Assembly (NCBI GenBank): GCA_009692045.1
Contig: SIAA01000019.1
Location: forward strand, 1-38,512
Length of the DNA stretch: 38,512 nucleotides
Direction: 5' to 3'
DNA from: Phycisphaerales bacterium
Lineage (GTDB): Bacteria; Planctomycetota; Phycisphaerae; Phycisphaerales; SM1A02
Shown piece by piece: positions 1,186 through 27,902 of the stretch. The position numbers and the translations under genes are program-made. Position 1 is the stretch's first letter. Each line of letters opens with the position of its first letter. The notes under the pieces are model-generated. The model searched no databases. It was not told the origin of the DNA and saw only the letters and a list, made by a program, of their open reading frames with translations.

Positions 1186-3714
<2,529 letters not shown>

Positions 3715-3804
3715 GAGATTCTTTCCATTTGGGTTTCGTGCGGGGGTATCCCGTTTGAGGGTGAGGAGTGTATCGAACAGTTACCCTTCTGTCATCCCCT
3801 CCCC

Positions 3805-4812
3805 ATGCTTGCCAATCGCCTACAGAACCGGTTTCGTCATCTGCGCAAATGGGCGCGGCGCAGCGGCGTCCAGTGTTTTCGGGTGTATGAGAGGGATATT
3901 CCCGAGTTCCCAGTGATCGTCGACTGGTACGACGGGGATGTAGTCGCATGGATTCATCCTCGGCGCAAGGATGAAACCATCGAGCAGGAGGTGGCGTTCC
4001 TGGAACTCTGCCAGAGCGAAGTCATCAAGGCATTCGCTCTGCAGCCGGAGAGATTGTTCATCAAGGAGAGGCAGAGGCAGCGAGGGATGGCCCAGTATGA
4101 GAGAGCCGGCGCCGCCGGGCAAACCAGGACCGTGATGGAGCAGGGGCTCAAGTTTGAGGTGAATCTCACTGACTATCTGGACACAGGTCTGTTTCTCGAT
4201 CATCGCATGACGCGGCAGATGGTGCGTCAGTCCGCTGCCGGGAAGCGCGTGCTAAATCTGTTCGCCTACACCGGCGCCTTCACGGTGTACGCCGCGGCTG
4301 GCGGGGCACTGCGCACGGTCACGATTGACATGAGTAATACCTATCTGGCCTGGTGCCAGCGCAATCTGCTGCTGAACGAGGTTGAGGCGAGCTCCATCGG
4401 TGTTCCAGATGCGGCGCAGCACCAGATCATTCACGCTGACTGTTTGGCATGGCTGGATCATCGCCCCAATGTTGCCGAGCAGTTTGACATCGTTGTGTGT
4501 GATCCACCCACCTTCAGTAACAGCAAGCGCATGCGCGATGACAGTTTCAGCGTGGATCGAGATTGGTCAGCGCTGCTGGCATCGATTGTGCCCTGCGTAG
4601 CACCCGGAGGCGTCATCTACTTCAGCACCAACTCCCGCTCGTTCTCGCTCTCACTCGAAGGGCTGCCACCAGGATGGAGTGCTAGAGACATCAGCAGATT
4701 CACGCAATCGGAGGACTTCTCCCAATCGCGCAACACTCATCGCTGCTGGATTCTCGGGGCTGGCGAGCAGGCCCCGCTCGCACCCAAGCCCAAGTGGATA
4801 GAGCCCGACTGA
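3805..4812 (+). CDS. rlmK: Stand-alone RlmK-type 23S rRNA guanine-N7 methyltransferase
   Basis: Predicted SAM-dependent enzyme that makes m7G2069 (E. coli numbering) in 23S rRNA. The 335-aa protein matches the C-terminal half (RlmK) of the two-domain E. coli RlmKL. It begins MLANRLQNRF, nearly as the E. coli domain does, then has the PUA-like region and NLTDYLDTGLFLDHR at 120-134. SAM motif I is LNLFAYTGAF at 150-159, and the catalytic CDPPTFSNSKRM segment is at 232-243. The N-terminal THUMP/RlmL half that makes m2G2445 is absent, so that activity is either encoded elsewhere or missing. The gene is divergent from hppA across a 90-bp spacer. The start ATG has no Shine-Dalgarno; a TACCCT hexamer sits 17 nt upstream. 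Confidence 0.9.
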   Translation: MLANRLQNRFRHLRKWARRSGVQCFRVYERDIPEFPVIVDWYDGDVVAWIHPRRKDETIEQEVAFLELCQSEVIKAFALQPERLFIKERQRQRGMAQYERAGAAGQTRTVMEQGLKFEVNLTDYLDTGLFLDHRMTRQMVRQSAAGKRVLNLFAYTGAFTVYAAAGGALRTVTIDMSNTYLAWCQRNLLLNEVEASSIGVPDAAQHQIIHADCLAWLDHRPNVAEQFDIVVCDPPTFSNSKRMRDDSFSVDRDWSALLASIVPCVAPGGVIYFSTNSRSFSLSLEGLPPGWSARDISRFTQSEDFSQSRNTHRCWILGAGEQAPLAPKPKWIEPD

Positions 4813-4821
4813 TCGCGGCTG

Positions 4822-5952
4822 TCACCCATCGCTGGCGCGCAACAAAAACTCCGGAGCATCAGGCAGTTTTTTGGCCCAGACCTGAGGGCCGACCCCCGGC
4901 GTTGTCAGATCGAACCGGAGGATCGACTTACTCTTGCGGTCACCCACAAAGAGGTTCTCGCCCCGAATGGTGAGCGCGGATGGTTCATCGGGGCACACTC
5001 CCGAACCTGCGAACACGGTTACCGCGCGGGTGCTGAGATCCACTACAAAGATGCAGTGCGCTTCATTGTCTCCGATGTACATCTTGGTCTGCGCCTCGTT
5101 CAGCACCAACTGAATAGGACTCTTGAGGCCGCGCGACTCGTCGGCGATCACGCTGGTGATCGCTCCAGTGCTGCTGTCATAGATGGCGACTCGATGCGCG
5201 CCCTTGTCGGCGACGGCGATGGTGCCATCCGGCATTGTCAGCAAGCCGCGAACCTCCACCAGCCCCGAAGGTGAGACGGTGCGCGCGGGAATCAGCACGC
5301 CCGGGGAGAGCCGCAAAGACTGCAGGGAATGGGGAGAGGGAACAGGACTTCCCTTCTCCGCGGACCCCACCCCGCCGAACCGCGTCACCGTGTTCGTGTC
5401 CTGATCACTGGCATATATGGTTCCATCCGCACCGACGACGACGGCGTAAGTGTGCACCAGCGCCGGATCAGCCTCGGCCGAGTAACCCGCGAACACTTCG
5501 ATGAATGGGCGCACGCCATCGGCACCGGTGGGGCCGTAGCGCAGAAGTCTCGTGTCATTCTTGAAGGCGTTCACCACCAGTAGTGAGCCATCAGCAAGAT
5601 GGGCCATGCCCCGAAGGTCTTTGGTGCTACCCACGCTATCGGGGGCGCTGCCGAGCACCTTCTCTACTACATCTCCCGACTCGCTGAGGCCGACAACGGA
5701 GTTGCCTCCCTTGTCACCGTGCAGCGTGACATACCAACTGATGCCACCCGCCTGAGCATCGTGCGCGTGCCCATGCTTCCCGTCTGCCGGCGGAGCGCCA
5801 CCGGCATCCGCGGGAGTTTCATCCTCATGATGGTGCTTGTGCCCCTGATCCTGACGGTCGCTCGAAGCGGCGCCAAACAATGATGCGGAGAGACTCCCGA
5901 AGGTGAAGAGGACCAGTACTGCGGCGCGGAGGCGCGGGGGGCGATTTAGCAT
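4822..5952 (-). CDS. Secreted NHL-like beta-propeller protein with His-rich N-terminus
   Basis: Exported protein of 376 aa with no assigned reaction. Residues 1-28 look like a signal peptide (basic start, hydrophobic core at 10-24, AAS cleavage region). A low-complexity linker then carries seven histidines (38, 40-42, 60, 62, 64) mixed with Asp/Glu, which could bind Zn, Cu or Ni. From about 72 to the end the sequence repeats short blocks such as ADGSLLVV, ADGTIYASD, PDGTIAVAD and KMYIGD, typical of six-bladed NHL/SMP-30-type propellers. Such domains bind ligands or proteins, or in some families are lactonases. It converges with rlmK with a 9-bp gap. A TATCCT hexamer lies 13 nt before the ATG. 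Propeller fold is fairly sure; function is unknown. Confidence 0.8.
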   Translation of the reverse strand: MLNRPPRLRAAVLVLFTFGSLSASLFGAASSDRQDQGHKHHHEDETPADAGGAPPADGKHGHAHDAQAGGISWYVTLHGDKGGNSVVGLSESGDVVEKVLGSAPDSVGSTKDLRGMAHLADGSLLVVNAFKNDTRLLRYGPTGADGVRPFIEVFAGYSAEADPALVHTYAVVVGADGTIYASDQDTNTVTRFGGVGSAEKGSPVPSPHSLQSLRLSPGVLIPARTVSPSGLVEVRGLLTMPDGTIAVADKGAHRVAIYDSSTGAITSVIADESRGLKSPIQLVLNEAQTKMYIGDNEAHCIFVVDLSTRAVTVFAGSGVCPDEPSALTIRGENLFVGDRKSKSILRFDLTTPGVGPQVWAKKLPDAPEFLLRASDG

Positions 5953-14251: not shown

Positions 14252-15907
14252 TCAGCCCGCAGCATTTGATTCAGGAAACGAATCCAGAACTTGTCTAAGT
14301 AAGCCGGGGTTGCTCAGAGCCGCGTCGACTACTTCGGGATCGAAGTGGCCACCGCTTTCGGCTCGCAGGAGTGCGAGAACCTCCAGCTCCGGCCACGCTT
14401 CCTTGTAGCGTCGAACACAGGAGAGCGCGTCATAGACATCGGCGAGGGCCACGAAGCGCGCGAACAGCGGAATATCCTGGTCCGATCTGCCGCGGTTCGT
14501 GCCGTCGGGCAGCACTCTGCCGGGGTATCCGGCGCCATCCCATCTCTCGTGATGACAGAGAGCAATGTCCCTTGCCACGCGTTCAAATGGGCCGCCCATG
14601 CCCGCTACCAAGTCAGAGCCGATGGTGGTGTGTCGCTTCATCGAGTCAAACTCAATCTGAGTCAGGCGGCCGGGCTTCTTGAGAATCTCATCGGCGATTG
14701 CCACCTTTCCTATATCGTGCATCAAAGCACCGGCGTGCAGCATGTCTCTCTGCGCGAGTCGGTCGGCTTCGGGGATCGCTCGCGCGGCAGCCCATGCGTC
14801 GTACACGGCAACCGCGATGCCTGCCACTCGACGCGCGTGAGCCGTAGTTTCGCTGGGGTCGCGCAGGGTTGCCATCCGAACCATGCACATGATGTGGGCG
14901 CGCGTGAGCGAGGTGCGCTGCAGATTGGCCGAGCAGAGTGTGCCGAGGGCTCGCAGCACCTCCTTGTCAGCGGCATCGAATGCCAGGCCAGCAGAGCGTG
15001 AAAATGCCAGCACGCCCTCGGGATTCCCCGCGTTGTTGAAGATCGGACATGCCGCTATGTTGCCACCGAGCGCCGAGGGTTCCTGCCCCATCGCCGAGCC
15101 GATGATGGGTCCGCTGGCCGAAGCAGTCTGGGCCACAAGAGAATCGGCGTTGGTCGCATCGATTGCCAGACCCGCGTCATCCTGTTCGGGAAACCATGCG
15201 ACTGGTCTCAGCATCCCCATCTCCAGACGCAGGAAGCACGATCGATTCGATCCGAGGAGTTCGGCGCCGGCACTCACCACCCGCTGGAGCACGATGTCCT
15301 GATCGATCCAACTCGCGGTTTCATCACCCAGTTTCGAGATGCAGCGGAGTCGTCCCCGCGGAGTCTCACCCCGTGCCCTCTCGCCCTCGGCATCAGCCTC
15401 GAGTTCTATATTCATGCGGATGAGATGCAGATTCGATTCCTCCAGCCGTCGGTTCGCCTCGGCCAGATGCCTTGTCAGTCGATGGTTCTCCTCGGCCATC
15501 AGCTTCAGCCGCGCCTGAGCCCTGATGCGAGCGATGGCAGCACTGAAGTCGATCGGCTTGGAGAGAAAGTCGTTGGCGCCCTTGGACATCGCCTGCACCA
15601 TCAATGCGCCATCGTGAAGGCTGGTGGAAATGATGACGGGCATCTGCGCCAGATCATGGTGCTCCCGGATGCGCCCTAGTAAATCAATCCCGGTCATGCC
15701 TGGCAGCAGGGCATCACAGAGCACCACATCAGGTGGGGACTTGTCGAGGAGAACTAGGGCTTCCTCACCGGATGCCGCTTGCAGAATCTCGAATCCCGCG
15801 CGCTCCAAGCGCGTGGCCAGCATTTCGCGCAGCATCTCGTCGACCTCCACCAGCAAGACTCGAGTAGTACCCATGCGATCCATCGGACTTTCACTTTCGG
15901 CTGTCAT
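14252..15907 (-). CDS. Receiver-GAF-HD-GYP signalling protein (c-di-GMP phosphodiesterase)
   Basis: Predicted cytoplasmic regulator that degrades cyclic-di-GMP. The 551-aa protein has a receiver domain (15-130) with phospho-acceptor Asp65 and Lys117. A coiled coil covers about 130-175, a GAF-like domain 190-335, and the HD-GYP domain 340-530. The HD-GYP active site is intact: HDIGK at 397-401, H426, HHERWDGAGYP at 452-462, and LADVYDA at 488-494. The receiver acid pocket reads LVEVDE instead of LVDDDE, so phosphorylation may be altered. ATG at 15907 was chosen; ATGs at 15883 and 15874 are alternatives. TATACT lies 13 nt upstream with no Shine-Dalgarno. No partner histidine kinase is adjacent. 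Confidence 0.9.
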   Translation of the reverse strand: MTAESESPMDRMGTTRVLLVEVDEMLREMLATRLERAGFEILQAASGEEALVLLDKSPPDVVLCDALLPGMTGIDLLGRIREHHDLAQMPVIISTSLHDGALMVQAMSKGANDFLSKPIDFSAAIARIRAQARLKLMAEENHRLTRHLAEANRRLEESNLHLIRMNIELEADAEGERARGETPRGRLRCISKLGDETASWIDQDIVLQRVVSAGAELLGSNRSCFLRLEMGMLRPVAWFPEQDDAGLAIDATNADSLVAQTASASGPIIGSAMGQEPSALGGNIAACPIFNNAGNPEGVLAFSRSAGLAFDAADKEVLRALGTLCSANLQRTSLTRAHIMCMVRMATLRDPSETTAHARRVAGIAVAVYDAWAAARAIPEADRLAQRDMLHAGALMHDIGKVAIADEILKKPGRLTQIEFDSMKRHTTIGSDLVAGMGGPFERVARDIALCHHERWDGAGYPGRVLPDGTNRGRSDQDIPLFARFVALADVYDALSCVRRYKEAWPELEVLALLRAESGGHFDPEVVDAALSNPGLLRQVLDSFPESNAAG

Positions 15908-15920
15908 AGAAGGGAGCGCG

Positions 15921-15926
15921 AGTATA
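15921..15926 (-). promoter_or_regulatory. Putative -10 element (TATACT) of the HD-GYP gene
   Basis: TATACTCGCGCTC on the minus strand is identical over 13 nt to the start region of the DedA-family gene. It sits 13 nt from the ATG at 15907. It is only 12 bp away from the opposing -10 box of tRNA-Arg, so the two promoters share a very short spacer. Confidence 0.5.
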
Positions 15927-15938
15927 CAAAGCACCTGA

Positions 15939-16059: not shown

Positions 16060-16839
16060 ATGGGCATCATGTCAGGTAAACGAGGTTTGATTGTGGGGAT
16101 CGCCAATGATCACTCCGCGGCATATGCCATCGCCGAGAGTCTGCTCAAGGAGGGCGCTGAGTGCCTCTTCACGCATCTGCCCGGCGAGAAGATGCAGAGG
16201 CGCGTGGCAAGGTCTGTAGAGCAACTTGGCGTTGCCAATCCCTGGCTCGCACAACTGGACGCGGGCAGTGATGCCGATCTCGATGCTGTGTTTGCCCGCA
16301 TCGGTGCCGAGTTTGGCACGATCGACTTTCTGGTGCATTCAATCGCTTTCGCCGACAAGGACTGGCTCAAGGAGGGCGTGTTCGCGCAGACACCTCGCCA
16401 TGTGTTCACCCAAGCGATGGATATCAGTGCTTACACCTATGTGGCGATGGCGAATCGAGCCTCGGCGCTCATGCCCAGCGGTGGCGCCATGATCGCGCTC
16501 AGCTATTACGGTAGTGAGAAGGCAGTGCCGGGTTACAATGTGATGGGCGTGGCGAAAGCTGCTCTCGAGTCCTCCATGCGCTATCTGGCTATGGAACTCG
16601 GCCCGCGCAATATCAGAGTCAACACGATTTCTGCCGGTCCCATGCGCACGCTAAGCGCCATGGCAGTGGGTGGCTTCAGTGACATCTTGGGATGGGTTGA
16701 GAAGAAGGCGCCGCTCCGGCGCAATATCGACGGCTCCGATGTCGGTGGTGCCGCGCTGTGGCTGCTCTCGGATCTCAGTCGCGGCGTAACTGGGCAGAAT
16801 GTTTATGTTGACAGCGGCTATTCGATAGTGGGTCTATGA
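16060..16839 (+). CDS. fabI: Enoyl-[acyl-carrier-protein] reductase (NADH)
   Basis: Catalyses the last reduction in each round of type II fatty-acid elongation. The 259-aa SDR-fold protein is of normal FabI length. It starts SGKRGLIVGIANDHS (cofactor loop), and has SYYG at 148-151 (second active-site Tyr149). The catalytic YNVMGVAK lies at 159-166, matching Tyr156 and Lys163 of the E. coli enzyme. SAGPMRTLSA is at 191-200. It is a single gene behind tRNA-Arg. Its stop codon sits back-to-back with the stop of the opposing GTPase gene (CTATGA at 16834-16839). Confidence 0.96.
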   Translation: MGIMSGKRGLIVGIANDHSAAYAIAESLLKEGAECLFTHLPGEKMQRRVARSVEQLGVANPWLAQLDAGSDADLDAVFARIGAEFGTIDFLVHSIAFADKDWLKEGVFAQTPRHVFTQAMDISAYTYVAMANRASALMPSGGAMIALSYYGSEKAVPGYNVMGVAKAALESSMRYLAMELGPRNIRVNTISAGPMRTLSAMAVGGFSDILGWVEKKAPLRRNIDGSDVGGAALWLLSDLSRGVTGQNVYVDSGYSIVGL

Positions 16840-17835
16840 CGCGGTGAGGGCCGGGTGAAACAGCCAGACGCCTGAGTGCTCGAGGTCCGCGTCCGACACT
16901 AGTGACTGCCGCACCAATCGCGCCAGATCATTGATGCCATCTCCGCGCGACGCGCTGATGAGATGAGCACCTGCTTCCGCGGCCACCGAGGACCTCGGCA
17001 GATCAGACTTGCTGCGAACGCGGATGATGGGTGCTTGCATCGGCGGGACATCAATCCACTGCGAAGCGGGTTCGGCAAGTGACACGAGCAGATCAGCCCG
17101 CGAGATGACCTCCATCGCCAGCTTGGCCGAGTCCGCATCAATCTCGTTGCTGCTTGGCGCCATTCCCGGGGTGTCAACCCAGCGCACCACCAGACCATCG
17201 ACATCAAGAAGAACTCCGACATGGTCGCGCGTAGAGCCGGGCTCATGCCACTCGATGGAGACGGGGCGGCCGGCAAGCCGATTGGTAAGAGTGCTCTTGC
17301 CAGCGTTGGGGGCTCCTATGACAGCAACGACTGGTGGCCGCAGCAATCGGCACAGGCGCAGCGAGCGCTGCTCGTCCTGCAAAGTTGGCCGCCACGGTGG
17401 CGCGAGGGCCTGCCACCGTGCTTCCTGCTGAAGCAGAAGCAAAATGGCGCGAGGACTTGCCGCGCCCGCGAGTGTCTCCAGAGCCAGCGCCTCCACTCGA
17501 CTACGCGCTTCGGGGAATGCAGCGGCGGTCTCTGAGCTACCAAAGTCAATACCGCGCGAGGTCCAGTGATCCTGCAGGCGCTGGCGAATCATCGGCCCCC
17601 CGTGCGGCATCACCAGAATGGTTCGGGCATCGACTTGCACAAGCACGGCATCATCGATTACGTCGATTCTGCGGTGGGATGGCCGGAGGATTGTCAGAGG
17701 CTTGTCTAGCCCCAATGCCGCGGCCGCCCGCGAATAGTCGGTGAAGTCGATAGAGAGAATCGCGATGGCACCGGGTGTCGGTGCCGTCAGCCAGCGAGCG
17801 GATGCTGGTGCCTGGCTCAGTGGGTGTGAGCGCAC
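16834..17835 (-). CDS. MnmE/TrmE-related GTPase lacking the C-terminal CxGK motif
   Basis: A small GTPase of 333 aa that looks like a divergent, shortened relative of the tRNA-modifying GTPase MnmE (normally about 450 aa). The N-terminus keeps PGAIAIL at 21-27, and PHGGPMIRQRL at 77-87 resembles the MnmE N-terminal domain. The G domain has G1 GAPNAGKS at 174-181, G2 STRD at 201-204, and G3 DTPG at 221-224. G4 is SKSD at 275-278 instead of NKxD. The MnmE C-terminal cysteine motif is missing, so the tRNA-wobble chemistry is unlikely. The start is GTG, overlapping the coaX stop by 19 bp, with GAGG upstream. It is the last gene of the channel-dat-coaX operon. Confidence 0.8.
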   Translation of the reverse strand: MRSHPLSQAPASARWLTAPTPGAIAILSIDFTDYSRAAAALGLDKPLTILRPSHRRIDVIDDAVLVQVDARTILVMPHGGPMIRQRLQDHWTSRGIDFGSSETAAAFPEARSRVEALALETLAGAASPRAILLLLQQEARWQALAPPWRPTLQDEQRSLRLCRLLRPPVVAVIGAPNAGKSTLTNRLAGRPVSIEWHEPGSTRDHVGVLLDVDGLVVRWVDTPGMAPSSNEIDADSAKLAMEVISRADLLVSLAEPASQWIDVPPMQAPIIRVRSKSDLPRSSVAAEAGAHLISASRGDGINDLARLVRQSLVSDADLEHSGVWLFHPALTAS

Positions 17836-18611
17836 GATCCGTCGCCCTCAGTCTGGCTTTCACCAGAAGCAAGTCGCACGGCCGAGTCAATGCCATGAAG
17901 TGTCAGGTCGGGTTCGACCAGTTCCACCAAGTCGTCGCCCGCGAATAGCAGCTCGGCATCACCACCGGTGCCGATCACTCGAGGAAACGCGCCATAGGAG
18001 CTCGCGTATCTCTCTACCAGTCGTTGCACCATGCCACGGATTCCATGATGCACGCCCTGCAGCATGGCCTGCTCAGTGTTGCGACCGAAGGGCTCGTCTT
18101 CTGGGGTTGCAAAGACCAGAGAGGGCAGTGCTGCCGCCCCTTCGTGCATCGCTCGCAGTTGCATAGCAGCACCGGGCGCGATCGCGCCGCCCTGAAACAC
18201 TCCGGCGCCGTCTACGAAATCGACGGTGACAGCCGTACCCGCATCTACTACTACGCAAGCGCACTGATATCGGCTCCAAGCGGCCGCGGCGTTGAGCAGC
18301 CGATCTACCCCGGGTTTAGTACCGGCATCGAGACAGGTGCCGAGGGGCACCGCGATATCCTCGCCAATGCGCACGACACCCGCGTCCAGCGCCTTCTCCA
18401 GAGCGGTTCGAAGCTTGAGGGAAACTGTCTCGTTGACACTCGCCATCGCCACCACACTGTCATCGCCGAACTCGTGAGCGTGTTGCTGCACGCGCGCCAC
18501 GATCGCCTGCAGATGAGTGTTGTCAATGCGCTCGCTTCCATGCAGTTTGCCCGAGCAAAAACGCCCGATGGCGGTGCGGGTATTACCGACGCTGATGGCT
18601 ACGACATGCAT
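17817..18611 (-). CDS. coaX: Type III pantothenate kinase
   Basis: Phosphorylates pantothenate, the first step of coenzyme A synthesis. The 264-aa protein has the ASKHA-fold landmarks of CoaX: SVGNT at 7-11, KPGVDR at 99-104 (pantothenate site), DAGTAVTVDF at 123-132 with the catalytic-base Asp123, and GGAIAPG at 141-147. The usual D-x-G-N-T phosphate loop has Ser7 in place of Asp, which is unusual. The C-terminus ends in a short C-A-H-T-H tail. TATACT lies 6 nt before the ATG, so the gene could have its own leaderless transcript besides being in the operon (33 nt after the aminotransferase stop). Confidence 0.9.
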   Translation of the reverse strand: MHVVAISVGNTRTAIGRFCSGKLHGSERIDNTHLQAIVARVQQHAHEFGDDSVVAMASVNETVSLKLRTALEKALDAGVVRIGEDIAVPLGTCLDAGTKPGVDRLLNAAAAWSRYQCACVVVDAGTAVTVDFVDGAGVFQGGAIAPGAAMQLRAMHEGAAALPSLVFATPEDEPFGRNTEQAMLQGVHHGIRGMVQRLVERYASSYGAFPRVIGTGGDAELLFAGDDLVELVEPDLTLHGIDSAVRLASGESQTEGDGSCAHTH

Positions 18612-18617
18612 GGGGTC

Positions 18618-18623
18618 AGTATA
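18618..18623 (-). promoter_or_regulatory. Putative -10 element (TATACT) of coaX
   Basis: TATACT-GACCCC-ATG: the 6-nt gap places the expected transcription start on the A of the ATG. Together with the absence of a Shine-Dalgarno this is the clearest leaderless candidate in the window. Confidence 0.6.
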
Positions 18624-18644
18624 GGAGGCGAGACAGCGCCCCCG

Positions 18645-19490
18645 TCATCCCGCCGCAATCAGCTGCACCAGCACGGCGTTCAGCGCCATGGTGCGCGGCC
18701 CTGGCGCCGGCTGGCTCATTGCTCTCCCATCCAGATGGCTGAGTGCCCCGAGAATGCGCTTGCTGCCGGTTACAAAAGCTTCCGAAGCACCACGAAGTTC
18801 GGTTACAGGCAGAGGGCGCACGGCATGGGGAATGCCGGCTCGCGCGGCGCACTCCAGCACTAGGGAGCGCATGACACCGTGCAGAATGGGGGGATGGGAT
18901 GCGACGGGCGGCGTTACCAACACGCCCCCCACGAAGGCAAACACATTGCTTCCCGTTCCCTCTCCCACCAGCTTGTCGCGGCAGAGAATGGCCTCGTCCG
19001 CATCCTGCGCCGCAGCATCGAGAAGGTGGAGGATGTTGCCCTGCAGCGACAGCGTCTTGATCTCGCAGCGAGCCCAGCGCGCGTCCTCGACCAGTACGGC
19101 GCGCACCACGCCGGGAGTTGCCAGTGTCTCGATGCCCGCCGTGGCAACGGCGTAGGCAAAAACAGTGGGGCGCAGATTGGGCGCAGGAATGTGAGTGCGC
19201 TCTGCTCCAGCACCTCGCGTCACCTGCAGGTACACCGTGGCATCGCTCAGTTGCAGGTCGGCAAGAAGTGACTGGCACACCACGCGCAAAATGCCGGCAT
19301 CGATTCCCTCAATCCGAGCGCGGCGCAGGCTCTCCCGAAGGCGAGCCACATGGAGATCAAGCCCGGTACCGACCCCTGCAAAGAACCGCACCACTTCATA
19401 CACCCCATCGCCAAAGAGGAAGCCACGATCAAAGACGCTTACAGTTGCCTCTGCTTGGGGAACTATTCGACCGTCAAGCCAGACGCGCAT
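18645..19490 (-). CDS. dat: Aminotransferase class IV, D-amino-acid aminotransferase type
   Basis: PLP enzyme of 281 aa, predicted to interconvert D-alanine plus 2-oxoglutarate with pyruvate plus D-glutamate. Features: WLDGRIVP at 4-11, DRGFLFGDGVYE at 21-32 (fold-type IV entry), the PLP lysine Lys145 in RCEIKTLSLQGN (141-152), and GTGSNVFAF (phosphate/cofactor loop) in the second half. The EIKTLSLQGN wording is closer to D-amino-acid aminotransferases than to IlvE, where TTGLK-type strings differ; a branched-chain or ADC-lyase role is less likely. It starts 9 nt after the stop of the glutamate-receptor-like channel gene, so the two are almost surely co-expressed. Confidence 0.82.
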   Translation of the reverse strand: MRVWLDGRIVPQAEATVSVFDRGFLFGDGVYEVVRFFAGVGTGLDLHVARLRESLRRARIEGIDAGILRVVCQSLLADLQLSDATVYLQVTRGAGAERTHIPAPNLRPTVFAYAVATAGIETLATPGVVRAVLVEDARWARCEIKTLSLQGNILHLLDAAAQDADEAILCRDKLVGEGTGSNVFAFVGGVLVTPPVASHPPILHGVMRSLVLECAARAGIPHAVRPLPVTELRGASEAFVTGSKRILGALSHLDGRAMSQPAPGPRTMALNAVLVQLIAAG

Positions 19491-19496
19491 GGCTCG

Positions 19497-19502
19497 AGTC
19501 TA
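19497..19502 (-). promoter_or_regulatory. Possible -10-like hexamer (TAGACT) before dat
   Basis: TAGACT followed by CGAGCC and ATG repeats the 6-nt spacing seen at coaX. Its first three bases are also the TAG stop of the upstream channel gene, so it may be a coincidence within an operon. Confidence 0.3.
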
Positions 19503-20669
19503 GCTTCCCTTTTCGGCGTGAATGTCGAGCTGATCCTGCCACGATGGTGTGTCAATAACCATGAGGACTTGTTGGGCGATGTGTTCTTCCAAGTCCATGG
19601 GCAATGCGTTCGACAATCCCAAGGCGATGAAGCTGTGAGTGATTAGATCGGGCAGAATAACAATGCCGTTGGAGGGCCGTTGGAAGATGGTGTGCTCCAG
19701 TTGTCGGCGCGACCGGGCAAAGACATCGATCTCGCCGCTCTCCACCGCCAGAAGCGCCAGTTCGTCGTTGGCGAATCTCAGGGGCGTGACACCGCGGTTG
19801 TGCAGTGGAATCTCATCGGTTGAGTCGGCGTGAATCCCGACCCGGTAGCGCTGGATGTCCTTCAATGAATCAATGGCCGGCTTCAGGGCGTGAATGGTCA
19901 GGGCGCTTGAGACTGCACCGGTAAGCATGGCGATCATCACGAGAGAGATGAGAATCCAGATCGACGCCACGAAACGGCCGAGGTGTGTTCGCGGAACCAC
20001 ATCACCGTAGCCGACTGCCGAGCCTGTTACCCAAGCCCACCAGAGCGCGTGTCGCATGCCGCTGTGCTGGCTGAAGTGTGAATCGGCCGCCCTGCGCTCT
20101 ACCAAGCGCACAACGAGGCCAAAGAAGAGGCTTCCCAAGATGAGAGCTGTCAACCAGAGGAGAATCGTCGGGTCCATGAGGTGACCGAATGCACTGGAAA
20201 GTAGATGCGGTTGTCGGACGCGCACCGCGGCGGCGAGACCGGGCGAGTCGAAGGGGGGCGCAAAGTTCCAGCGGACTTCGCTGGAGTAGTCGAGATCGAG
20301 TCCGGTCGCAGCAACATCTATCTCGCCACTTGACAACTTGGACTCGATTTCGGCAAGTGTGCAGGGGATGAGTGTCCAGTGCAGATTCAGGTCAGTTGCG
20401 ACAGTGCGCCAGAGAAAGATCGCCATGCCTTCCCAGTTGCCTGCAGAGTCTCGGGACGAGAAGGGTGGGTTATCGCAGGTCCCAACACGCAGCGGCTTCG
20501 CAGCCGAGCCCATCGTCCCCGGCGGGGGGCTCCACTTGGGCGATTGCTGAGTTGTCGGAGTTGCGGTCTGCGCACCTGCGGCATGCGGCGATGCAACGGC
20601 CACGAGAACCGCGATAGTCATGCTGGTGAGTCTCAGGGCCGCCTGAAAAACAATGGGACTCGTTTTCAT
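19500..20669 (-). CDS. GluR0-like prokaryotic ionotropic receptor (ligand-gated K+ channel)
   Basis: Membrane channel gated by a periplasmic binding domain, the prokaryotic counterpart of ionotropic glutamate receptors. The 389-aa protein has a signal peptide (1-34) and binding lobe S1 at about 58-155 (LRVGTCDNPPF at 60-70). TM1 is about 168-190, with a pore loop at 207-223 whose selectivity filter reads TGSAVGYGD (215-223). TM2 is about 232-256 and lobe S2 is 274-389. The VGYGD filter marks K+ selectivity. The Arg that holds the ligand carboxylate in iGluRs, six residues before the FxxP motif, appears to be Ser; an Arg lies three residues before (Arg133). The ligand may therefore not be glutamate. 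ATG 20669 was chosen over an upstream GTG at 20690 because it starts the signal peptide. It leads the operon. Confidence 0.92.
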   Translation of the reverse strand: MKTSPIVFQAALRLTSMTIAVLVAVASPHAAGAQTATPTTQQSPKWSPPPGTMGSAAKPLRVGTCDNPPFSSRDSAGNWEGMAIFLWRTVATDLNLHWTLIPCTLAEIESKLSSGEIDVAATGLDLDYSSEVRWNFAPPFDSPGLAAAVRVRQPHLLSSAFGHLMDPTILLWLTALILGSLFFGLVVRLVERRAADSHFSQHSGMRHALWWAWVTGSAVGYGDVVPRTHLGRFVASIWILISLVMIAMLTGAVSSALTIHALKPAIDSLKDIQRYRVGIHADSTDEIPLHNRGVTPLRFANDELALLAVESGEIDVFARSRRQLEHTIFQRPSNGIVILPDLITHSFIALGLSNALPMDLEEHIAQQVLMVIDTPSWQDQLDIHAEKGS

Positions 20670-20677
20670 CTGCGGGC

Positions 20678-20683
20678 AGCATA
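20678..20683 (-). promoter_or_regulatory. Putative -10 element (TATGCT) of the channel operon
   Basis: TATGCT on the minus strand, 8 nt before the ATG at 20669, no Shine-Dalgarno between. The opposite promoter for the SDR gene lies 41 bp away, giving a compact divergent control region of 67 bp. Confidence 0.45.
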
Positions 20684-20724
20684 AGGTCACTTCTTCCGAA
20701 ACTGTGGCAGCCGCCCCGCACTGC

Positions 20725-20730
20725 TACTCT
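20725..20730 (+). promoter_or_regulatory. Putative -10 element (TACTCT) of the SDR gene
   Basis: TACTCT-CAGATC-ATG repeats the 6-nt hexamer-to-start spacing seen at coaX and at the methyltransferase gene at 26079. No ribosome-binding site precedes the ATG at 20737. Confidence 0.45.
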
Positions 20731-20736
20731 CAGATC

Positions 20737-21552
20737 ATGCAACGGACATTGGCAGGACGCACAGCCGTGATCACCGGCGCTAGCAGCGGCATCGGTGCGG
20801 CGACTGCGCGCGCGGTGGCGCGGCAAGGCATGTCTGTAGTGCTGGCGGCGCGCCGGCTGGACAGATTGCACTCCTTGGCATCCGAGATTCGAGCGATGGG
20901 AGGTAAGGCCTCGGTGGTGGCTCATGACTGCGCCGTTCCCGGTTCAGAAGTGGCGCTCCTCGACGCGGCCGAGCGAGAGTTCGGCGCCCTCGATGTGGTG
21001 TTTGCCAACGCGGGATATGGTCTAGATAGACCTATGCATCTGCTTGGCGGGAGCGACCTGCGTGCCATGTTTGAAGTGAACTTCTTTGCCGGTTGCGATC
21101 TGCTGACAGAATCGGCACGACGACTCCTCGCAGCTAAGCGCACAGGCCACCTGCTCATGTGCTCCAGCTGTGTTGGCAGGTACGCGCTTCCCGGTTACGG
21201 CGCCTATGCCGCCACGAAAGCGGCGCAAACCATGGTGTGTCAGTCAATGCGCTTTGAGCTGAAGACAGCGGGGATCGCCGTCAGCAGCGTCCATCCCATT
21301 GCCACTACCACCGAGTTCTTCGAGCAGTGCCAGCGAAGAGCGGGGCTTGAGAAAGAGGCGAGCCACCCCGAGCATGCCCCCAAGATGTTCGTGCAACCGG
21401 CGGAGCGAGTGGCCGAGGCCATCGTTGCCTGTCTCAAGCGGCCCCGGGCTGAGGTCTGGACCAGCTGGTCCGCGCGCCTGGCTGGGGCAGTGTTTGCGCT
21501 GTCGCCTTGGTTGCACTGGCGAGCCATTCGATCGATGATTCATCGGGATTGA
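20737..21552 (+). CDS. Short-chain dehydrogenase/reductase (SDR)
   Basis: Classical NAD(P)-dependent oxidoreductase of 271 aa; substrate unknown. The nucleotide-binding TGASSGIG is at 13-20, NAG of the fourth strand follows near 89-91, and the catalytic YAATK comes shortly after a CSSC segment. R-R-L-D-R after the second strand suggests NADP preference (inference). The C-terminal 40 residues are hydrophobic and amphipathic, as in membrane-associated SDRs of the DHRS7 type. ATG 20737 fits the family start; the frame stays open upstream. It stands 95 bp ahead of gap, and no terminator separates them. Confidence 0.88.
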
Positions 21553-21647: not shown

Positions 21648-22664
21648 ATGTCTATTCGCATTGGCATCAATGGATTCGGTCGCATCGGTCGCCTCGTGAC
21701 CCGCATTGCACTCTCGCAGGGTGGCGTGGAAGTCGTAGCAGTCAACGATCTGGTTCCTGCCGACAATCTGGCCTACCTGCTCGGCCACGACTCCAATCAT
21801 GGCAGGTTCGGCGAGGACATTCATGCCGATGGCGATGTCATTGTGGCTGGGGCATCAAGGATCAAGTGTCTGAGCGCGAGAGACCCAGCACTGCTGCCCT
21901 GGAGGGACATGGGCGTTGACATCGTGATCGAGTCAACCGGGCTCTTCACCACTCTGGAGGATGCAGGCAAGCACCTGACTGCCGGAGCGAAGCGCGTGTT
22001 GATCAGCGCACCGACCAAGTCAGACAAGGAAGTTCCGACTCTGGTGTACCGAGTCAATCACGAGTCGTATGACCCGGCCAAGCATCAGGTTGTCAGCAAT
22101 GCTTCCTGCACCACCAACTGTCTTGCTCCCCTAGTCAAAGTGCTGCTCGATACCGTTGGCATCGAGGAGGGACTCATGACGACCATTCATGCGGTGACGG
22201 CAACGCAGCCCACTCAGGACGGGCCAAGCAAGAAGGATTGGCGCGGTGGTCGCAATGCCTACATGAACATTATTCCCAGCAGCACCGGCGCCGCCAAGGC
22301 GGTGGCGCTGTGCCTACCCGCCACGAAGGGGAAGTTGACCGGCATGGCGTTTCGCGTGCCAACTTCCAATGTGAGCTGTGTTGATCTGACTTTCCGGAGT
22401 GAACGAGCGAGCAGTCTCGACGCCATCCACGCTTCGATGCAGGCTGCCGCTGATGGCCCCATGAAAGGGGTGCTGGGATTCACCAAGTCTGAGGTGGTCA
22501 GCAGCGACTTCATGAGTGATCCGCGCAGTTCGATCTACGACTCGCTCGCCTGCCTGGCACTCAACGACCGGTTCTTCAAACTGGTGAGTTGGTACGACAA
22601 TGAGTTCGGCTATGCCAACCGCTGCGTTGACATGGTGCGCTATCTCGCTGCGCGCGGCGTGTAG
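21648..22664 (+). CDS. gap: Glyceraldehyde-3-phosphate dehydrogenase
   Basis: Glycolytic/gluconeogenic enzyme converting glyceraldehyde-3-phosphate, NAD+ and phosphate to 1,3-bisphosphoglycerate. The 338-aa protein has INGFGRIGR at 7-15 and the adenine-side VND at 32-34 (NAD type). The catalytic SCTTNC is at 153-158 with Cys154 as nucleophile, and His181 lies in [18 protein letters not shown] closes the protein. The start at 21648 has AGGA 8 nt upstream. The last 25 bp overlap the end of the opposing ChaN-like gene. Confidence 0.97.
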
Positions 22665-26078: not shown

Positions 26079-27902
26079 GTGAAGCCTTCTAGAGCAGCAC
26101 CGGTTCTGGACCCCCACGAAGCAACTCTTGTGGGCCAGCCGCTGCGTCGCAGCAGAGGCTCGTTCTATACCCCGCCCGCTTTGGTGTCGCACATCCTTGA
26201 TGGCGCGCTCGCTTCATGGCACAAGCGTGGTGGAACCGGCGCAGACTCAGCCCCCGACTTCCGCGTATGCGATCCAGCCTGCGGTACGGGGCGATTTCTG
26301 GTGGAGGCAGCACGCCGACTCGCGGTCAATCAGCAGGGCGAGTTGGATCGCGGTCTATTGCGGCGCGTTACCGAGGCTTGCATATGGGGAGTCGATGTTG
26401 ATGCTGAGGCCGTTCGCCACTGCCGTGAGAATCTCTGGAGTCAGTGCGGTGACGGTCCGATGCCGCGGGAGTTTCTGCTCAAGCAAATCGTCTGTGGCGA
26501 CGCACTTGGTGGAGCACCATCTCGCATCCGCACTCAGTCTGAAGCAGAAGCTTGGCTGAGGACCGACTCTGCGGGCGCAGAGCGCCCGTTTCACTGGGGT
26601 GTGGAGTTTCCTCGGGTATTCAGCGCCGACTCTGCTCGATCAGGATTCGACTTGGTGGTGGGCAACCCACCCTTTCTCAGCCAACTCAAGCTCAGCTCGG
26701 CGCGAACCACCGCGGCCGCAGCCAGGTTGCGCAGACGGTTCGGTCCGGCGCTCTCACGGTATGCCGACCAAGCAGGCGCCTTTCTTCTCCTCGCTCTAGA
26801 ACTCGCGGCACAGGGCGGCACAATCGCCATGGTTCAGCCGCACTCTCTGCTAGCTGCTCTTGACAGCCGTGGAGTTCGCGAGGCGATGCTCAAGCACTGC
26901 CGGTTGCAACGACTCTGGGTCGCCAACGGCAGAGTGTTTCCCGGTGCCAGCGTTTTTGTGTGCGCGCCCGTGTTCCGCAAGCTGGCGCGAACCTCACGCC
27001 GAGCATCAAAGCCCGCGGTCGTGATGGTGACCTCGGGCTGTGACTTGGAGCGCCGAGGCGGACTCGGCAAGCCCGCGCCGACTCCCTTCCCCATGGACTC
27101 AGTCTCAACATGGTCCTACCTCGGAGCCGCGTCTCTAGGCGTGCCGATTCTCTCCATCGGAGTTGGCGCGACCATTAGCGAAATCGCCGATGTAACCGCT
27201 GACTTTCGCGACGAGTACTACGGCTTGCGCGGCAGTCTGGTGGAGGATGCTGATGTGCCGGTTCGCCATAGGCACCGATACCCGCCGCTGGTGACCGTGG
27301 GGCTCATTGATCTGGCGCGGTGCAAGTGGGGGCAGATCCCATGCCGGATTCACAAACAGCAGTTTGCTGCGCCGCGGGTGGATCGCCGGCAACTTGATTC
27401 GGATGGGCTCATGGGGAAGTGGATGCGGCGAAGGCTCAAGAAAAAGATTCTCGTCGCCACTCAGACACGCATGATCGAAGTGTTCGTTGATGACACAGGC
27501 AAACTGCTGCCGAGCACACCTCTGCTCAGCGTTGTTCCTAGCGATCCGCGCCAGCTGTGGATGATCGCAGCCGCCATCGCGTCGCCTGTTCTGTGTGCTC
27601 TGGCGCTTTCTCGGTACTCAGGCTCGGCTCTACACTGCGATGCCATCAAACTCTCAGCATCTCAACTGCGAGGAATGCCGCTTCCAATTGAGCGATCTTC
27701 CTGGCGTCTGGCGGCAGAGTCGCTGCGGCGCGCTCATCGCGGCGCACCCGCACAGCACCTGGTCGACTTCGCGCGTCACTCGTGCCGTTCCTACGGACTC
27801 GATGCGGGGCAGTCCGAGTGCGTGTTCGCCTGGTGGACAGCGCGGCTACAGATCGGGGAACGCCGGAGTCGGCGGGCAACTCCGAAAGAGCTGGAGTCAT
27901 GA
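26079..27902 (+). CDS. Adenine-N6 DNA methyltransferase, Eco57I-like, no restriction partner
   Basis: Probable DNA adenine methyltransferase of 607 aa. Motif X is RGSFYTPPALV at 26-36, SAM motif I is VCDPACGTGRFL at 63-74, an acidic WGVDVD follows at 103-108, and catalytic motif IV is GNPPFLSQ at 195-202. The segment FHWGVEFPRVF (171-181) before motif IV is typical of the Eco57I/type IIG methylase branch. The C-terminal half (about 300-600) should be the target-recognition part. No nuclease motif (PD-ExK) is evident, and no restriction gene is beside it. The GTG start has no good ribosome-binding site. The stop overlaps the aldehyde dehydrogenase start as ATGA, an odd pairing for a modification gene. 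Confidence 0.87.
   Translation: MKPSRAAPVLDPHEATLVGQPLRRSRGSFYTPPALVSHILDGALASWHKRGGTGADSAPDFRVCDPACGTGRFLVEAARRLAVNQQGELDRGLLRRVTEACIWGVDVDAEAVRHCRENLWSQCGDGPMPREFLLKQIVCGDALGGAPSRIRTQSEAEAWLRTDSAGAERPFHWGVEFPRVFSADSARSGFDLVVGNPPFLSQLKLSSARTTAAAARLRRRFGPALSRYADQAGAFLLLALELAAQGGTIAMVQPHSLLAALDSRGVREAMLKHCRLQRLWVANGRVFPGASVFVCAPVFRKLARTSRRASKPAVVMVTSGCDLERRGGLGKPAPTPFPMDSVSTWSYLGAASLGVPILSIGVGATISEIADVTADFRDEYYGLRGSLVEDADVPVRHRHRYPPLVTVGLIDLARCKWGQIPCRIHKQQFAAPRVDRRQLDSDGLMGKWMRRRLKKKILVATQTRMIEVFVDDTGKLLPSTPLLSVVPSDPRQLWMIAAAIASPVLCALALSRYSGSALHCDAIKLSASQLRGMPLPIERSSWRLAAESLRRAHRGAPAQHLVDFARHSCRSYGLDAGQSECVFAWWTARLQIGERRSRRATPKELES

Follow-up and report, generated by a model that had tools for sequence, protein, structure and literature searches.

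Prokaryotic glutamate receptors and related channels

Synechocystis GluR0 (Slr1257) and Nostoc NpGluR0 are K+-selective prokaryotic glutamate receptors, in which a signal peptide is followed by the segments S1-M1-P-M2-S2. GluR0 has been reported to adopt an inverted topology, as judged by PhoA fusions, to enable E. coli LB2003 to take up K+, and to require its soluble domains; an influence on cell volume following KCl upshock has been reported as well (PMC13099474). For Group 1 of the prokaryotic ionotropic glutamate receptors (iGluRs), the annotation "putative glutamate-sensitive potassium channel" has been suggested (Ger et al. 2010, PMC2950845). Insect ionotropic receptors (IRs) are iGluR channels that diverge fast and in whose binding domains the glutamate-interacting residues are partly or wholly missing (PMC2924276). 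No publication on a planctomycete iGluR was found in the literature searched.

Here we describe a channel gene of a lake-dwelling planctomycete of the order Phycisphaerales, located in a 38,512-nucleotide stretch of contig SIAA01000019.1 (the window). We consider it probable that the gene encodes an intact K+ channel of the GluR0 type, opened by a ligand in the periplasm, with a ligand-binding clamp that has diverged and a trigger that is probably no standard alpha-amino acid.

Gene architecture and predicted fold

The gene (19500..20669, minus strand; protein P0001, 389 aa) was identified from its open reading frame, Pfam domains and a structural model. It is intact, reading from an ATG at 20669 to a TAG at 19500-19502; a sequence-only reading of the window had delimited it correctly, and the strand is minus. 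Its GC by codon position agrees with that of the neighbours (GC3 0.69 versus 0.65-0.71) and the other five frames over the stretch are full of stops (6-15), for which reasons we regard the frame as a real gene.

The protein passes the Pfam gathering scores of Ion_trans_2 (1.8e-13), SBP_bac_3 (1.3e-11), Lig_chan (6.7e-10) and also Ion_trans; the SBP_bac_3 domain is split, and its match begins at residue 60. Hydropathy peaks at residues 6-24, 169-187 and 233-251, and the predicted model has helices at residues 5-26, 167-191, 204-217 and 229-261. A signal peptide (residues 1-33, AGA/QT cut; 20571..20669, minus strand), recognized by eye and coinciding with the first peak and the first helix, precedes the S1 half of the ligand-binding domain (residues 58-151; 20217..20498, minus strand), delimited by the SBP_bac_3 match and structure alignment. 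It is followed, on the same strand, by M1 (residues 167-191; 20097..20171; model helix and hydropathy), the pore helix (residues 204-217; 20019..20060; model), M2, corresponding to M3 in iGluR naming (residues 229-261; 19887..19985; model and hydropathy), and the S2 half (residues 263-386; 19512..19883; model and structure alignment). The order S1-M1-P-M2-S2 behind a signal peptide is thus present in full.

AlphaFold2, supplied with an alignment (A3) of the window protein and 43 relatives from genome contigs, produced a model with mean pLDDT of 88.6 and pTM of 0.75. Its top VIA-align match is the GluR0 ligand core with L-glutamate (1ii5; Z 26.2, rmsd 2.3 over 217 residues), and NpGluR0 (2pyy) aligns with Z 25.1, rows up to 1 Z apart being counted as tied. 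The binding core, as compared with 1ii5, has the GluR0/SBP type II fold. Residues 55-389 of the model also align with full-length AMPA, kainate and NMDA receptors; Foldseek full-chain rmsd is large (7-15) because the orientations of lobes and pore vary among states. At the sequence level, the A3 profile matches 2pyy at 8e-52 and 1ii5 at 7e-43. The GluR0-like architecture proposed from the sequence alone is therefore borne out by Pfam domains, hydropathy, predicted model and structure matches, and the superposition on GluR0 that had been recommended as a check ranks its core first; at the level of fold, no departure of the pore helices from those of K+ channels was found.

Genomic locus and distribution

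The gene downstream of the channel, 9 bp past its stop codon, encodes a class IV aminotransferase (18645..19490, minus strand), for which the nearest NCBIfam model is D-amino-acid transaminase, below cut-off. It is followed by genes assigned by domain annotation to a type III pantothenate kinase (coaX; 17817..18611, minus strand) and an MMR_HSR1 GTPase (16834..17835, minus strand), and then by fabI. On the other side lie, also by domain annotation, a divergent short-chain dehydrogenase (SDR; 20737..21552, plus strand) and glyceraldehyde-3-phosphate dehydrogenase (GAPDH; 21648..22664, plus strand), a conserved flank. Elsewhere in the window, a response regulator with GAF and HD domains is encoded at 14252-15934 and an Eco57I-like N6 DNA methylase at 26079-27902. 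Patterns of sigma-70 promoters and intrinsic terminators were not found at 18500-20900, which is uninformative.

Scanning genome contigs with the single protein gave 0 matches, and a profile scan gave 80 loci. The same arrangement of genes flanks the channel in some 50 relatives, where channels share about 22-34% identity with that of the window and the neighbouring genes mostly 45-75%, with lower values for one aminotransferase (36%) and for the GTPase (34-45%). A single branch (SH-aLRT 94) of an 88-row tree separates all 44 syntenic channels from the rest, and the syntenic label requires 1 change, versus a mean of 29.9 when shuffled. The shared block and the single-branch grouping identify the channel as a single orthologous locus (aminotransferase - channel - SDR - GAPDH), forming one clade within the family. 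In most relatives of several genera, a gene of the BtpA/SgcQ family of TIM barrels separates channel and aminotransferase (e.g., L104:5025-5891); it is missing at the window locus and in the same-genus genome G001.

We considered a functional tie between channel and downstream aminotransferase but dropped it, because the aminotransferase-coaX-GTPase block remains where the channel is missing. Aminotransferase and GAPDH share a contig at 69 loci; the channel lies between them in 37 and is absent from the other 32, some of which may never have had it. G001 (55% complete, contiguous here) carries the block with an empty site at L188:4295-4443, between aminotransferase (3507-4295) and SDR (4443-5147), and in another genome, G070, a truncated remnant consisting of signal peptide and S1 only occupies the syntenic place (L191:2448-2864). 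Empty site and remnant together show that the channel gene is dispensable.

Matches at E <= 1e-12 occur in 77 of the 181 genomes of the window's family, with K-type channels and non-K paralogues pooled, and at E <= 1e-40 in 27 of 294 genomes across the phylum. The description of such receptors as uncommon thus holds for the phylum and fails within the family. The non-K paralogue of this family is found at 21 loci (L080-L083, L085-L101) and matches SBP_bac_3 and Lig_chan; it has the pore motif VxMTGKTxYKG and a SYTANLAA-like gate, VAYITSTVTSxMTAN, and keeps the ligand arginine in 18/21 and Asp/Glu in 21/21. In the window genome (G000, 95% complete), searches found no SBP_bac_3 protein besides the channel, no other Ion_trans_2 protein above cut-off, and no TrkH.

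Ligand-binding site

Pocket positions are named here by GluA2 numbers, with a contact list that we take to be that of GluA2, and residue correspondences come from sequence alignment. The ligand-carboxylate arginine (GluA2 R485 equivalent) is lost, its place being held by S130 (20280..20282, minus strand); D125 (20295..20297, minus strand) stands in the place of the ligand threonine (T480), and S320 (19710..19712, minus strand) in that of the amine-binding Asp/Glu (E705), also lost. Canonical relatives display the motifs ..T.T..R..VDFS.PF and YDxPIL. The arginine is absent in 41/53 syntenic channels, compared with 0/23 K-type relatives from the rest of the order and 6/42 of the named outsiders; for Asp/Glu, the corresponding counts are 28/53, 0/23 and 3/42. 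All 23 of these K-type relatives keep both Arg and Asp (among named outsiders, Arg in 36/42 and Asp in 38/42), and 25 of the 53 syntenic channels have lost Arg, Asp/Glu and Thr altogether.

The sequence-only reading had taken Arg133 (20271..20273, minus strand) for a seemingly displaced ligand arginine and had suggested that the ligand may therefore be new. An arginine does lie three residues past the expected place. However, position 133 is also Arg alongside a kept R130 in 7/23 K-type relatives and 8/42 named outsiders, which makes it a background position and the canonical arginine simply lost. The inference of a changed ligand fares better than its premise: a change of ligand is probable, and the fact that the aligned Arg, Asp and Thr contacts have disappeared together, throughout a clade, is better evidence for a putative new ligand than a displaced arginine.

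The channel could still be an alpha-amino-acid receptor with a rebuilt pocket, in which Arg133 or the S2 arginines R319, R321 and R322 take the carboxylate. The fold of its S1-S2 comes closest to cores with bound glutamate or glutamine, the usual pocket is retained at S283-T284 and F70, and a D-amino-acid-transaminase-like gene lies next to it. Yet Arg, Thr and Asp are all gone, Arg133 is common to only 11 other syntenic channels and is frequent where R130 is kept, and the transaminase is a fixed neighbour even where the channel is absent; we judge a rebuilt amino-acid pocket unlikely. A charge-swapped pocket, with D125/D127 facing R319/R321/R322, was also considered. R319 is unique to the window channel; D125 is not peculiar to it, because Asp occupies this position in 13/53 syntenic channels, some of them with R130, and the arrangement stays a guess.

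Since the window channel lacks the residues by which an alpha-amino acid is held, the trigger is probably no standard alpha-amino acid: the window channel is probably no amino-acid receptor any more and is a candidate receptor for another ligand. With all three tested contacts missing, the name "glutamate receptor" should be avoided for it.

Selectivity filter and pore

The selectivity filter TGSAVGYGD (residues 215-223; 20001..20027, minus strand; VTGSAVGYGDVVP), located by sequence and alignment, was seen as previously reported, with one departure that had gone unmentioned: compared with the K+ consensus, TTVGYGD has become SAVGYGD. In terms of the signature TxxTVGYG, T215 and VGYGD are present and the threonine preceding VGYG, at the S4 site, is replaced by A218, while Ion_trans_2 remains above cut-off. 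The substitution is found in three of the 53 syntenic channels (those of the window, L013 and L056), for which the tree requires two changes; all 42 named outsiders have threonine. The filter core, the pore-helix WW and an ER motif are retained. A different alteration is seen at L102:2884-4002 (G048), where VILLGNKG replaces VTMTTVGYGD with Arg and Asp kept; that genome also has an ordinary channel copy, L003.

Equivalent mutants of the S4 threonine conflict in selectivity among channels. In KcsA T75A, water takes the place of the S4 K+ ion and conductance is lowered; MthK T59A and NaK2K T63A are non-selective, whereas Kv1.5 T480A and Shaker T442A remain selective (PMC11251424). With VGYG kept and Ala at the S4 site, the window channel is likely to be K+-permeable, although it would conduct weakly and perhaps with lower selectivity.

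The poor conduction of KcsA T75A and the loss of selectivity in MthK and NaK2K could also point to a non-conducting sensor or auxiliary subunit, forming no channel by itself. We hold this to be highly improbable: the protein retains an intact VGYGD, pore helix and M2, the Kv1.5 and Shaker mutants stay selective, and a search of the genome turned up no other SBP_bac_3 channel as a partner.

Selective constraint

The window gene is without a close orthologue and sits on a branch of 1.3-1.5 changes per site, and dN/dS values were taken from its relatives. Comparison of closely related pairs, the majority of them Arg-less channels, gave dN/dS of 0.05-0.31, and in most pairs the pore had the lower value; low values are also seen within Arg-less clades (pairs L034/L035, L027/L028 and L058/L064). 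The members of the clade thus remain under purifying selection. Within groups, pocket columns are more alike than the other columns of the domain (0.68 versus 0.51 in g54, 0.69 versus 0.54 in g25, 0.71 versus 0.47 in g61a).

These data bear on another explanation, namely that the channel is relaxed or decaying, open or silent without ligand and heading for loss. The empty site in the same genus, the S1-only remnant and the frequent absence (32 of 69 contiguous loci) would agree with it, as would the long branch of the window channel; a lost pocket together with the T-to-A change in the filter could also mark decay. Against this, 389 codons have stayed intact along that branch, coding composition is normal, filter core, pore-helix WW and ER motif are kept, and relatives with the same losses evolve at the low dN/dS given above. 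Decay of the window channel is therefore quite unlikely in our view, and at the level of the clade, constraint and alike pockets fit changed ligands better than decay.

Proposed mechanism

Beyond the architecture, fold, residue losses, orthology and clade-level constraint shown above, we infer the gating, ion, ligand and physiology of the window channel as follows. S1 and S2 would form a two-lobed clamp in the periplasm; by homology to GluR0 and iGluRs, ligand binding would close the clamp and pull the linkers, opening the M1-P-M2 pore. The signal peptide agrees with a periplasmic clamp and an inverted topology, and fold and homology support the putative coupling of such a clamp to an inverted K+ pore. 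The output may be an adjustment of membrane potential or turgor, as reported for Synechocystis GluR0. In the Phycisphaerales clade, the channel has been passed down at a single locus, its clamp diverging along the way.

Comparison with known systems

The window channel resembles GluR0 and NpGluR0 in lacking M4 and an N-terminal domain, in its VGYGD filter and in its ligand core fold, and it shares a predicted topology and a likely K+-type pore with Group 1 prokaryotic iGluRs. It differs in the absent ligand Arg, Thr and Asp and in the alanine at the S4 site; core identity to GluR0 and NpGluR0 is about 17-23%, and the host is a planctomycete, not a cyanobacterium. Because its glutamate contacts are lost, the "glutamate-sensitive" annotation of Group 1 does not carry over. 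The channel would act like GluR0 with a different ligand.

Like insect IRs, the window channel has a binding domain from which glutamate-interacting residues are missing. Unlike them, it is bacterial, has two helices and a K+-type pore, and is the single such gene found in its genome; insect IRs are a protostome clade of eukaryotic iGluRs with an animal-type pore, outside which it falls. The resemblance, as we read this comparison, is parallel and no sign of kinship.

We speculate, with belief and doubt in equal measure, that the Phycisphaerales channels are a bacterial counterpart of insect IRs: an ancestral GluR0-type K+ channel at one locus, whose clamp repeatedly dropped amino-acid recognition for lineage-specific ligands and whose S4 site was altered in two branches (window and g5). 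If this is true, iGluR-type channels switched ligands in bacteria as in insects, and a natural same-locus series, from canonical through Arg-less to Arg/Asp/Thr-less channels, lets ligand switching be tested on soluble S1-S2 cores. The naturally occurring SAVGYGD filter would likewise be an evolved test of the role of the S4 threonine in K+ selectivity, on which engineered channels disagree (PMC11251424). By architecture and fold, the window channel is GluR0-like, a variant of a known channel type.
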